Positions 15,341-63,969 of a stretch of DNA of 64,000 bases are shown piece by piece. A model generated the notes under the pieces. It had not been told where the DNA came from, did no database searches, and saw only the letters and a program-made list of their open reading frames with translations. Position 1 is the first letter of the stretch; every line of letters begins with the position of its first letter. Origin of the DNA: Druceiella hillmani (taxonomy: Eukaryota > Arthropoda > Insecta > Lepidoptera > Hepialidae); contig JAYKKI010000004.1 of NCBI GenBank assembly GCA_039881145.1, forward strand, positions 44,957,001-45,021,000. Reading direction: 5' to 3'. A program made the position numbers and the translations under genes.

Positions 15341-15521
15341 CAAGTTTCGTTGAGTGACCCACGTTTAATAAAATTTTTGGTAAGCAAAATACTTAATTTT
15401 TTCATTCACAAAATGGTCGTATCTCTTCGTCTCCGTCGATCACTCAAGTTATTGCTGAAGTTCACAATTAAATGAAACTACGTGATGTAGTATTATTTCT
15501 ACTATCTTTTTAATTTCTTTA

Positions 15522-15562
15522 CCACGACCTAGGTTTCGTTGTATTACAACATCTTCAGGTGG
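15522..15562 (-). ncRNA. Hammerhead ribozyme-like motif, copy A
   Basis: Read on the minus strand: CCAC (stem I), CUGAAGA core, then U, GUUG-UAAUA-CAAC (4 bp stem II and loop), GAAA, CCUAGG (stem III plus tiny loop), UC, then GUGG closing stem I. Every conserved core element is in the right order and cleavage is predicted 3' of the C in GUC. One U between the core A and stem II is unpaired, a departure from the textbook fold. Activity is untested. Confidence 0.7.
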
Positions 15563-15578
15563 GATATTAGCAAAGATA

Positions 15579-15606
15579 ATGTAATACAACGAAACCTAGG
15601 TCGTGG
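15579..15606 (+). ncRNA. Truncated hammerhead-like motif, copy A right arm
   Basis: The right arm keeps the loop and 3' half of stem II, then GAAA, CCUAGG, UC and GUGG. It lacks the CUGAAGA core and the 5' strand of stem I, because the inversion junction falls inside stem II. It cannot fold alone as a hammerhead. Confidence 0.65.
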
Positions 15607-15716
15607 TAAAGAAATTAAAAAGATAGTAGAAATAATACTACATCACGTAGTTTCATTTAATTGTGAATAATGGATTTCTACAAAATTAACGCCAAATATA
15701 TTCAATTATTACTGAA

Positions 15717-40660: not shown

Positions 40661-40847
40661 ATAAATAGATTGTTTTGCGTTAGAGTTATTCCAAACATAT
40701 ATTAACAAATTGTCTACCTGAAGATGTCATACAATGAAACCTAGGTTGTACCCATAGCCACATCACGTAGTTTCATTTAGTTGTGAAAAATTAAATTGAT
40801 AAATTTCCACAGAATTAATGCCAAATATATTCAATAAACAGATTGTT
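40661..40847 (+). mobile_element. Hammerhead-bearing retroelement insertion, copy B
   Basis: This is a single-orientation copy at 40675-40833, flanked by a 14 bp target duplication with one mismatch (ATAAATAGATTGTT at 40661, ATAAACAGATTGTT at 40834). It shares CACATCACGTAGTTTCATTTA and the tail GCCAAATATATTCAAT (here TGCCAAATATATTCAAT) with copies A, C and D, but has no inverted arm. It is more diverged than A and C, so it is an older insertion. Confidence 0.7.
40714..40751 (+). ncRNA. Decayed hammerhead ribozyme-like motif, copy B
   Basis: CUAC, CUGAAGA, a mutated stem II, GAAAC, CUAGG, UU and GUA follow in hammerhead order. The 3-base stem I (UAC with GUA) and weakened stem II suggest it no longer folds well. 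The cleavage triplet would be GUU. Confidence 0.5.
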
Positions 40848-41589: not shown

Positions 41590-42246
41590 GTGCCAAGTCA
41601 GACAGAATGATGAGAATATAAAGAAAAATATCTTTGATCTTCAGGAACAAGTGAAAGCAATGAAATTAGAAATCGAAAAATTAAAACTAAATCGGAACTT
41701 GAGTGACATGAAGTCACAAGGAACAGATGAGTTAAACAATGATGACCTCGCAGTCGATACAGAATTGATACGAGTTATACGAATAGAATTGATACGAAAA
41801 TAACAAGGAAAAATGAAAGTTGGCTAATGGAAAAACAACGAAACGTGACCGTCAAATGATAAGCAAAGAACGTTATAATACCAAACCTGATATGCAGTCA
41901 CCACCAAAACACATGCATAAACCACCGCCTATTATGGTAACCGACGTTGAAACTATTAATGAATTAATTGCGTTAATAAACCAAACAATTGGTAATGATC
42001 ATTTCCAAACTAAATTGATAAACAATAACGTTAGAAAAATAAATGTTTCAAATGATAATGTATAGAGCCTTGACTAACGAACTGAAAAAAAAACATGAAA
42101 GTTCATGGCATTCCTACGAAAACAAACAAAATAAGGATATCAGAGTAATGATCAAAAATATGCATCATTCTTTAAGCCCAACAGATATCCACAATTAAAT
42201 GAAACTACGTGATGTAGTATTATTTCTACTATCTATAATTTCTTTA

Positions 42247-42287
42247 CCACGACCAAGGTTTCGTTGTATTACAACATCTTCAGGTGG
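42247..42287 (-). ncRNA. Hammerhead ribozyme-like motif, copy C left arm
   Basis: On the minus strand: CCAC, CUGAAGA, U, GUUG-UAAUA-CAAC, GAAA, CCUUGG, UC, GUGG. All core elements are present. It differs from its partner only in the stem III loop (UU instead of UA). Confidence 0.7.
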
Positions 42288-42317
42288 GATATTAGCAAAG
42301 ATATCTTTGCTAATATC

Positions 42318-42358
42318 CCACCTGAAGATGTTGTAATACAACGAAACCTAGGTCGTGG
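42318..42358 (+). ncRNA. Hammerhead ribozyme-like motif, copy C right arm
   Basis: CCAC at 42318, CUGAAGA at 42322-42328, stem-loop II at 42329-42342, GAAA at 42343-42346, stem III with its loop, GUC ending at 42354 (predicted cleavage 3' of this C), and GUGG closing stem I. One U before stem II is unpaired. In the full inverted transcript the two arms would compete by pairing with each other. Confidence 0.72.
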
Positions 42359-43090
42359 TAAAGAAATTATAGATAGTAGAAATAATACTACATCACGTAG
42401 TTTCATTTAATTGTGAATAATGAATTTCTACAAAATTAACGCCAAATATATTCAATATTCCCAACAGATATTATAAGTCATCTAAAAGCTCAGAGATTGG
42501 AAGCAGTGAATGTTAGAGCTAAATTTTAATGGAAAACGAAGGAACCGTTAGATATGTTTTTTGTTGAGTTTAAAAAGAATAAAAATGTTAATAAAATATA
42601 CAGCATTAAAAAAGTTTGTAATGCGGTCTTTACTTTCGAACCAATTAAAATCAATAAATTAATACCGCAGTGTAAAACCTTTCAATTATTAGGTCGTACT
42701 AAAAACTATTGTAACAAGGCACCTAGATGTGTTAAATGCGCTGGACATCATCTAAGGATTGACTGTGATAAATCATAAAGTGATATACAGCCAAAATGCT
42801 GTCACTGTAAGAAAAATCATACTGCCAACTATCGAGGATGTGAAGTGATTAAAGAACTTCAAAAACTGAGAGATAGCAAAAATAAAACTAAATTGGTAAA
42901 AACCAATAAATTGGTAAGAATATCCACTCAGAATAAGACCATGCAGATAGCGGCCACAAAACAACACAATTGCAGAAGAACACACAGCTTAGCTGTTTCT
43001 GATAATATCCGTGTAACTAAGCAAATGCTAAAAGATCAAAACCTACAACTCAATAAAATTGGGGGTAAACTTAAAGTCTCTGGAAACTAA

Positions 43091-53208: not shown

Positions 53209-53276
53209 AAAATAAAGTTCACACTTAAATGAAACTACGTGATGTAGTATTATTTCTACTTTCTTTAAGTTCTTTA

Positions 53277-53317
53277 CCACAACCTGGATTTCGTTGTATT
53301 ACAACATCTTCAGGTGG
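53277..53317 (-). ncRNA. Hammerhead ribozyme-like motif, copy D unit 1
   Basis: CCAC, CUGAAGA, the same stem-loop II as in copy A, GAAA, UCCAGG, UU, GUGG on the minus strand. Stem III is altered and the cleavage triplet is GUU, which still fits the UH rule. Confidence 0.6.
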
Positions 53318-53354
53318 GCTATTAGCAAAGATCTTATCTTTGCTGATAGCCCAA

Positions 53355-53383
53355 TTTCGTTGTATTACAACATCTTCAGGTGA
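53355..53383 (-). ncRNA. Truncated hammerhead-like motif, copy D unit 2
   Basis: The CUGAAGA core, stem-loop II and GAAA are kept. The sequence then passes directly into the start of the neighbouring unit, so stem III, the cleavage site and the 3' strand of stem I are lost. Confidence 0.6.
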
Positions 53384-53416
53384 ACTATTAGCAAAGATAC
53401 AATCTTTGCTAATAGT

Positions 53417-53455
53417 TCACCTGAAGATGTTGTTATACAACGAAACCTATGTCAT
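53417..53455 (+). ncRNA. Hammerhead-like motif with damaged stem I, copy D unit 3
   Basis: UCAC, CUGAAGA, U, GUUG-UUAUA-CAAC, GAAA, CCUAUG, UC, AUGG. The core is intact, but the base next to the core on each side of stem I no longer pairs (C with A), so activity is doubtful. Confidence 0.5.
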
Positions 53456-53570
53456 GGTAAAGAACTTAAAGAAAGTAGAAATGATGCTACATCACGTAGT
53501 TCATTTAATTATGAATAATGAATTCCTACAAAATTAAAGCCAAATATATTCAATATTTCAAAATAAAGTT

Positions 53571-62518: not shown

Positions 62519-63969
62519 TTAGTCTTCTTGAGATTCCAGTTGGTTCAAATCTGTACAATGTTTACAAAAAAAATATGCGTGCTCTAAACATATAGGTACT
62601 TCGCATCGCTCGCAACCGTATTTTGTCTTTCGATCTCTTCGCCTATCGCATTCCGAATATCTTGTTATACGTCTTGGCATCTTCTTTGGTGTTTCCACAC
62701 TTGATTCACCGAGTAAAACATTTATGCGCTTACGAGAATCCCTTGGAATTCGTGGATTATCTTTGCGGTTTCTCAGGTGCTCTTCAATCAAAGCCATTCC
62801 CAAATCACGAATAAACTTCCTCCTTTTGTTATATTTCCCTGCATCAATGGCATTATTGAACATATGTAAAATCATATCGTTGATTCCTGCATGATTGAGA
62901 ATCGAGAATAATATAGCGAGAGGCCAGCGTTTGCTGTTGTGAGAAACGTCGTATGTTCTGGCGAGTTTGTCGACCACATCTACTCCACTTTTAGTTTTAT
63001 TATAGAAAGTTATTATTATTGGTTTCTGCTTGATTCCAGTTTCATGGCCGATTTCTTTATCCTGGTGAACGGATGACATCATATGAACGTACTTTCGAGG
63101 CTTTGGAACATAACTAACGAGATTGACATCTTTTTGAAAGCCAAACCGTGATGAATATAACTCTCGCGATTGTTTGAAGCATGGCGGAATGCAAGCTTTA
63201 TTAGCTCTCAAAGTACCAACTACCGTTAATTTATGTTTCTGTAACAAGTTTTTAGCAGTTTCATGACTGGTAAAGAAATTGTCCATGGTAACATTTCTTG
63301 ACGAGCCGGACACGCAATTCACCATACGATCTACAAAGTCAAATGGCTTATTGCTCAACATAAACGGACTGTTATCTGGCTGTTTACCGCAGTAAATTTC
63401 TAAATTTAGAGTATAAAATGTTTTAGCGTCTACTAAGGCATATATTTTTATTCCATACTTTGCGGGTTTGATGGCATATACTGCCAAAATCCACATCTCC
63501 CTCGAAAGGCAAACAATTCTTCAAGTGTTAGGAGTTCGGATGGTGTATATGCGTTTTGACAAAGCTGAACAAAGATGTCAAATATGTCTCGGATTGGTGC
63601 TAAACGATCAGTCTTCATTCTCTCTTCTCTAGTCGTAGCATCATCGAATCTCATATTATTGAGTAGGTATGAGAATCGATTTTTAGACATCGTGCACCGA
63701 AATATTTCGATTCTAGTACCATCTGAAGCCAAGAGGTCATTGAGGTTTTGTCTTCCAGAACGGTATAATCCAGCTAAAAATAAAAGCCCAAAAACTACTT
63801 TCATCTCATATGCAGTTGTTTCTTTATAGAGAACATTTAGCGGTTCACGGTCTGGTGGCTGTGGTCTCGAAAGACATATCTTTGCATTCGTATGTTTTAT
63901 AATCGTTTCAAGTATCTCATTGGAAACAAATACTTCAAAGCATTCTAAACTAGTTTTCTTGTCTTTGTA
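62519..63969 (-). pseudogene. piggyBac-type transposase (DDE_Tnp_1_7), frameshifted
   Basis: The protein cuts and pastes piggyBac elements at TTAA sites. From the 5' side it shows ILETIIKHTNAKI; then MKVVFGLLFLAGLYRSGRQN, EIFRCTMSKNRFSYLL, RFDDATT and LAPIRDIFDIFVQ; then, across a single-base frameshift near 63485, KPAKYGIKIYALVD (first catalytic Asp), VTMDNFFTS (second), VVGTLR, GFQKDVNLVSYVPK and ITFYNKTKSGVDVVDKL (third). A C-terminal cysteine-rich finger (YGCERCEVPICLEHAYFFC, then KHC) follows. All three catalytic aspartates and the finger are kept. One residue seems missing in the LTLEELFAFRGRC block. An in-frame stop lies at 63970-63972, so the N-terminus is broken, spliced or outside. 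Overall the copy is young but dead as it stands. Confidence 0.9.

Follow-up and report, generated by a model that had tools for sequence, protein, structure and literature searches.

We found that the insert at positions 42189–42459 of the window (the whole 64,000-nt stretch of Druceiella hillmani DNA analysed here) is a hairpin-shaped inverted dimer. Its repeated unit most likely represents the leader at the 5′ end of a Penelope-like element (PLE) mRNA and comprises 117 nt of leader followed by the first 13 codons of the open reading frame (ORF). The insert is probably a double-primed, target-primed reverse-transcription product of this leader RNA, and dimers of this kind appear to be dead products that an autonomous element leaves on insertion. 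The observations behind this mechanism are the target-site duplications, the two different outer ends, the independent inner ends and, at one locus, a link to a PLE with a GIY-YIG domain.

The two arms form an inverted repeat (42186–42302 and 42303–42419) of 117 nt that is 98% complementary and has a 0-nt spacer, in keeping with the head-to-head arms described in an initial annotation of this DNA. The 12-bp target duplication described there, CCCAACAGATAT, is indeed perfect at both edges of the insert (Table 1). The first base of the left arm, 42189, is an additional C. We number the unit along the sense strand, such that unit 1 is 42303 and unit 157 is 42459; the tail would be the stretch that separates two start sites of reverse transcription. 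The annotated nesting within a LINE also holds as far as it was examined: a decayed remnant, which we take to be Jockey-like, occupies 42530–43087, where CCHC knuckles can be recognized by eye in the translation. As the annotation had stated, no reverse transcriptase (RT) or endonuclease partner for this element was seen in the window (Pfam search of five of the six ORFs of at least 120 aa). Elsewhere in the window, a 325-aa ORF at 62519–63496 (−) matches DDE_Tnp_1_7 (Pfam, 109.6 bits) and is presumably a piggyBac-type transposase.

Table 1. Coordinates of the insert, its parts and its further copies in the window
Feature	Position	Strand	Remarks
Left target-site duplication	42177..42188	.	CCCAACAGATAT
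Insert, hairpin-shaped inverted dimer	42189-42459		Between perfect 12-bp target duplications
Left arm	42189..42302	-	Antisense, from about unit 113 down to unit 1; tail-less
Putative minimal type I hammerhead, left arm	42247..42287	-	Stem III ACCUUGGU; CTGA at 42283
Predicted cleavage, left-arm hammerhead	between 42251 and 42250	-	
Right arm	42303..42459	+	Unit 1-157 (5′ leader and tail)
Putative minimal type I hammerhead, right arm	42318..42358	+	Descriptor match; Rfam 16.6 bits, below cut-off
Predicted cleavage, right-arm hammerhead	after C42354 (unit 52)	+	
Tail, 40 nt	42420..42459	+	Read as first 13 PLE ORF codons (MNFYKINAKYIQY)
Right target-site duplication	42460..42471	.	CCCAACAGATAT
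Second copy, E2	15461..15706	+	Full antisense arm, 5′-truncated sense arm, tail; flanks TTATTGCTGAA / TTATTACTGAA
Third copy, E3	53218..53557	+	Four alternating units (-,+,-,+), the two inner ones truncated; AAAATAAAGTT at both flanks
Fourth copy, E4	40692..40836	+	Diverged; single sense unit, hammerhead-like core and tail

A BLAST search with the unit located three more copies in the window (E2, E3 and E4), which are absent from the initial annotation. The pattern of E3 (53218–53557) is what one might expect had the template been switched, or priming repeated, within one insertion.

Across the genome (2.586 Gb in 181 contigs), the unit is present in very large numbers. An exact 16-mer from the tail has 43,159 copies (21,526 + 21,633; reversed control, 2, as 0 + 2) and an exact 23-mer from the arm has 65,224 (32,666 + 32,558; control, 0), where one dimer may hold two arm 23-mers and exact matching misses diverged copies. 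When 1513 candidates were ranked by their likeness to the whole dimer, all 40 places that were scored match in both orientations; the 20 copies chosen by whole-dimer likeness were kept out of all statistics. The statistics on dimers are drawn from 90 tail-sampled copies (the first 90 of 100 places listed, of 43,159), all of them from the first 2.9 Mb of contig C1 and, given how they were sampled, all with an intact tail. Dimers without a tail cannot appear in such a set, and they were looked for by eye in 42 arm-sampled loci (L061–L090 and L153–L164), which cover 100 listed places of the arm 23-mer.

Insertion as inverted dimers, as the annotation had proposed, is the rule in this sample: BLAST found an inverted left arm within 450 bp in 71 of the 90 tail-sampled copies and none in the remaining 19. 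A second same-strand piece of the unit lies within 450 bp at 4/90 loci, showing that head-to-tail tandems, the arrangement by which a retrozyme is recognized, are rare, while the arrangement is head to head in 71/90.

The sequence surrounding some copies points to the origin of the unit. Seven of the 19 copies with no left arm are long copies (L099, L107, L117, L118, L119, L121 and L150; 7/90 overall) that have about 300 bp upstream of unit 1 in common, and this upstream sequence is also found at L159, L160 and L164 (207–223 nt compared). In five of the seven long copies, it includes ATATAAATGC with a TATAAA that starts 31 nt before unit 1; the exceptions are L117, with a change in ATATAAATGC, and L099, which lacks it. 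The location of the TATAAA therefore suggests, from sequence, that unit 1 is the transcription start. As a separate observation, L159 and L160 (C1:1113670–1116730) hold tail-less and tailed ends of apparently one element of roughly 3 kb, with inverted repeats longer than 300 bp.

A relative with an endonuclease domain is located at C73:10396000–10412900 (L091 and L092), while the copies in the window are leader only. Here, a 121-residue ORF has a GIY-YIG domain (PF01541; Pfam 34.5 bits, compared to a cut-off of 22.6), with an inverted unit 5′ of it and a direct, tailed unit 3′ of it. Between the ORF and the tailed unit is upstream sequence with 77–83% identity to that of the long copies. This layout matches the Penelope plan as outlined in PMC3846280, namely an inverted pLTR, an ORF and a pLTR with a tail, and the sampled copies likewise have a pLTR-type layout: often inverted, with a 30–40-nt tail on one end and a target-site duplication. 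A GIY-YIG search of the genome, in which 150 of 1572 candidates were scored, found two places, both outside the window, and a search with the endonuclease protein found one relative at 50% identity (P0001). The second GIY-YIG match (L059, C78:6988204–6988353, −) looks, we presume, like a host SLX1-type nuclease.

The Penelope-type origin put forward in the initial annotation is backed by a GIY-YIG relative that is flanked by inverted and direct units. The annotation had expected the tail to lead to full-length relatives that encode both enzymatic domains; the endonuclease at C73 came from the GIY-YIG search, and neither an RT domain nor an intact PLE was found, the C73 copy being 5′-truncated with no RT there. 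The link to PLEs is based on this one truncated locus together with the common upstream sequence. The coding potential of the tail was also compared across copies. The ATG is in place in 75/90 tails and all 75 are open for 12 codons. Past the tail, L102 and L107 have similar sequence (84% over 63 nt), where L107 reads MTFYKINAKYIQYLKTADLTTLAILYRRLRIKFRKTIQSI and then a stop and L102 is similar by eye, giving a possible N-terminal frame. By its position, and not by a domain match, this frame may be the start of the PLE ORF. The unit has the appearance of a 5′ leader from the PLE's own mRNA, lacking the promoter, and the independent, short non-autonomous element proposed in the annotation is unsupported.

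Each arm contains CCAC, CUGAAGA, a 5-bp stem II, GAAA, a short stem III, GUC and GUGG in hammerhead order, as annotated, and an additional U follows A9, ahead of stem II. A chrysanthemum viroid hammerhead also has an extra nucleotide here. A descriptor that allows for it (CUGANGA, an optional 1-nt bulge, a stem II of at least 4 bp, GAAA, A15.1–U16.1 plus at least two stem III pairs, UH and a stem I of at least 4 bp) has four matches in the window, all of them to this family (starting at 42322, 42283, 15558 and 53313), against a background of two matches in 300 first-order Markov windows. A stricter, bulge-free descriptor has no match in the window, because of the additional U. Of the covariance models named in the annotation, Hammerhead_1 stays below its cut-off when the right arm is searched by itself (16.6 bits, E = 0.11, compared to 34 bits). 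No Rfam family reaches its gathering score anywhere in the window, and Rfam found no hammerhead at 10 further loci with long or single-unit copies. Matches to the entire palindrome (microRNA and others) are all below cut-off and are probably an effect of its hairpin shape.

The best fold (−14.6 kcal/mol) is favored over the hammerhead fold (−4.8 kcal/mol) by 9.8 kcal/mol. Neither this nor the low Rfam score is decisive, because the PLE hammerhead described in PMC11167929 cleaves only in the presence of its protein. Among the sampled copies, the identity of the hammerhead core is 0.958, compared to 0.966 at other positions, and all 12 core bases are kept in 54 of the 94 arms that span the motif. 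A core that is no better conserved than the rest is as expected for dead copies, and the functional ribozyme or hairpin RNA that the annotation had anticipated from this locus is unsupported. The 8-mer of stem III, ACCUAGGU, is self-complementary (duplex, −11.4 kcal/mol); according to work cited by PMC7761336, PLE hammerheads cleave as dimers.

In 58/71 dimers, the outer ends of the left and right arms are offset by about 40 nt. Left arms end at unit 110–125 in these 58, though the query reached unit 157; they end below unit 110 in nine dimers and at or beyond 132 in four. By eye, two of the latter (L148 and L151; 2/71) are truly double-tailed, whereas in L048 (157, at 78% identity) and L143 (132) the alignment runs on past the true left-arm end. 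On the right side, where a query with the window unit cannot show ends past 154–157, we compared the copies to L107 instead. Similarity to L107 ends 0–11 nt from the tail 16-mer in 88/90 copies, and L107 and L102 alone continue beyond the tail.

Duplications of at least 8 bp flank 49/71 dimers, compared to 24 of 600 mismatched flank pairs, and range from 8 to 15 bp among these 49 clear cases, a rough measure since tail bases may be included in the count. The other 22 dimers have flank matches of only 4–7 bp, which is chance level. Across the 47 duplications of at least 9 bp, A+T content is 79%. Of the 19 copies that lack a left arm, four (L055, L056, L058 and L138) are single arms with matching flanks of 10–13 bp, as expected for a one-sided insertion, and the arm-sampled loci contain lone tail-less arms (L074, L155 and L158). 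Therefore, double priming would be common, but not universal. Among the arm-sampled loci, L069 and L072 (the latter in a second copy that is rearranged) may hold dimers without any tail.

To locate the inner ends, we used the long copy L119 as a query, starting it 120 nt upstream of unit 1; it finds 70 dimers. No dimer arm passes −7, and 65 of the 140 arms stop between −7 and 2 (28/70 on the right and 37/70 on the left). The unit query itself begins at unit 1, and its count of 73/161 arms at unit 1 includes the seven long copies. With the window-unit query, and calling an arm full when its inner end is at unit 5 or less, 51/90 right arms and 39/71 left arms are full. Within the 71 dimers, both arms are full in 22, only the right in 16, only the left in 17 and neither in 16, and the positions of the two inner ends show no correlation (Spearman 0.16, P = 0.18). 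In 25/71 dimers, the left arm outreaches the right in the 5′ direction by more than 5 nt; in 13 dimers it stops at 1–2 while the right arm starts past 10, and the reverse is found in 12. Some unequal inner ends could come from central deletions of an original palindrome, but the deletion would need to halt at the centre every time.

The junctions between the arms include overlapping arm matches (microhomology) in 19 of the 71 dimers, abutting arms in 4, filler of 1–20 nt in 31 and filler of more than 20 nt in 17, a spectrum that resembles end joining. One dimer, found at L044 and L080 (C1 near 507,400), has both arms stopping at unit 26 and a long (TA)n central filler, with the repeated TTACAACAT adjoining it. 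The arms of one copy were also compared at the three positions with two common alleles (14, 64 and 72). They are discordant in 9/106 comparisons, compared to 41% for random pairs; elsewhere in the unit, mismatches run at 6.4%, which corresponds to about 2% for any one specific change. Therefore, both arms usually come from the same source, and the excess of disagreement is at most modest and does no more than hint at two templates in some events.

We also considered whether inner ends record a footprint of hammerhead run-off. Among the 67 inner ends that are cut short in the 90-copy sample, six are located exactly at unit 53, the first base past the predicted cleavage site (binomial P = 4.5 × 10−5; 0.00015 with a smoothed null; 0.005 for such a peak anywhere). 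These six ends stem from just four copies, and position 15 has five ends. Genome-wide, a full left arm is joined to a right arm starting at 45–53 in 249 places. The right-arm starts in 44 of these are at 53 (11), 52 (13), 51 (6), 50 (2), 48 (8), 47 (2) and 46 (1), with one unclear. The symmetric junction pattern is found at 106 loci, with every locus counted on both strands against a control of 1 per strand, and gap lengths are scattered over 0–8 in the 50 loci considered. The genome-wide junctions have no sharp peak at 53 and do not confirm the small sample peak as such a footprint.

In the mechanism that we favor, transcription of a PLE would start at unit 1 and produce an mRNA with a 117-nt leader, containing the putative minimal hammerhead, and an ORF from the ATG at 118. 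The PLE endonuclease would make a staggered cut in the target, and the 3′ end of each target strand would prime reverse transcription inside the leader region. A distal start at about unit 155–157 would give the tailed arm, and a proximal start at about unit 110–120 the tail-less arm. Each cDNA would either reach the 5′ end of the RNA or stop early, and the two cDNA ends would be joined via microhomology or filler, creating a head-to-head dimer between short duplications. We infer three of these elements, namely unit 1 as the RNA start, priming by both strands in one event and the end joining. The product would be dead on arrival because the promoter and most of the ORF are missing. The leader-only yield of a single-copy transcript would explain why leader-only copies outnumber long ones (7/90). 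Free choice between the two start sites would not suffice, since double-tailed dimers are nearly absent (2/71); a further rule is needed.

In a more far-reaching reading, PLE integration normally uses two templates and two starts, with the ACCUAGGU of stem III acting as an RNA-dimer signal for integration. The leaders of two mRNAs would be held together, perhaps by pairing through ACCUAGGU as a dimeric hammerhead, and one target strand would prime at the distal site and the other at the proximal site. We regard this extension as unlikely.

Dimers could also arise if a cDNA or antisense template snapped back and copied itself, generating a palindrome with a central loop. Such self-priming has been proposed for the Penelope elements of Adineta vaga (in the account of PMC3846280), and it would fit the perfect central palindrome of the window copy, the head-to-head orientation and the finding that the arms of one copy usually carry the same variants. 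However, the inner ends of the two arms are independent, and in the 25/71 dimers whose tail-less arm holds more than 5 nt absent from the tailed arm, the left arm cannot be a snap-back copy of the right because it contains sequence that the right arm lacks. Reversing the order does not help, as a tail-less arm made first could not give the tail, and the outer ends lie about 40 nt apart in 58/71 dimers. We consider self-priming quite unlikely. Instead, arms that end independently, and at different outer sites, favor priming from both target strands.

The very high copy number and a short unit with a hammerhead would agree with a separate non-autonomous retrozyme or SINE-like family that relies on PLE enzymes in trans, perhaps through a circular RNA; animal retrozymes of 170–400 nt are described in PMC7229834. 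This is a very doubtful origin for the unit, since its dimer arms begin at the inferred transcription start without the upstream TATA region, head-to-tail tandems are rare and longer, PLE-related copies contain the unit. Inverted arms between target duplications are also the hallmarks of a foldback or MITE-type DNA transposon with long terminal inverted repeats. Here, however, the duplications vary in length and are not of fixed size (8–15 bp among 49), a 40-nt tail is present on one end, truncation of the arms proceeds from the centre and a GIY-YIG endonuclease is present in a longer relative, making a DNA transposon extremely improbable.

Double priming from the leader fits the in vitro behavior reported for PAc, a Poseidon element (Penelope/Poseidon clade) of Anolis carolinensis (PMC11167929). 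According to that report, its protein cuts and extends both target strands at AT-rich targets, like those here, and reverse transcription starts internally at two nearby sites, with the tail being the sequence between them; its hammerhead is likewise near the ORF start. The two systems differ in that the PAc ORF starts at stem II and its reverse transcription starts 111–118 nt into the ORF, whereas here the ATG follows the predicted cleavage site at a distance of 65 nt, with one inferred start close to that ATG and the other some 40 nt beyond it. The report describes no apparent start-site difference between strands, unlike the asymmetric use of the sites by the dimer arms here. In Adineta vaga, Pen2a_Av and other Penelope elements have head-to-head inverted pLTRs with palindromes at their junctions, an optional 31-bp tail on one inverted pLTR and 8–10-bp target-site duplications, all similar to what we observe; as described in PMC3846280, they enclose ORFs or captured DNA and are present at low copy number, whereas leader-only dimers dominate among tens of thousands of copies here. 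Inverted pLTRs and short 3′ extensions in PLEs are also mentioned in PMC8969392. Animal retrozymes, as presented in PMC7229834, have short type I hammerhead repeats, like the putative ones here, and share low GC content and larger target-site duplications with the present family, but their units are in head-to-tail tandems and not head to head. The hammerheads that PMC7761336 describes, in PLEs and dispersed, are of type I, with a minimal helix III and a location in PLE pLTRs, as are the putative ones here; such minimal motifs are dispersed by thousands in animal genomes, whereas the dispersed copies of this one genome go back to PLE insertions that hold only the leader.

Inverted pLTRs, tails, minimal hammerheads and extension of both strands have all been published. 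In a literature search mainly at the level of titles and abstracts, we found no report in which inverted dimers limited to the leader are the chief product of a PLE family, none that tests self-priming quantitatively and none of a pattern with one proximal and one distal start.

How PLEs integrate, and why their inverted repeats carry an optional tail, is an open question in the field. Its tens of thousands of copies, most of them leader-only dimers among those sampled, make this family suited to a statistical test of the self-priming proposal. It is apparently a fossil record of insertion in a poorly understood class of mobile elements, and it provides a concrete source for the minimal hammerheads that have been reported dispersed by thousands in animal genomes.
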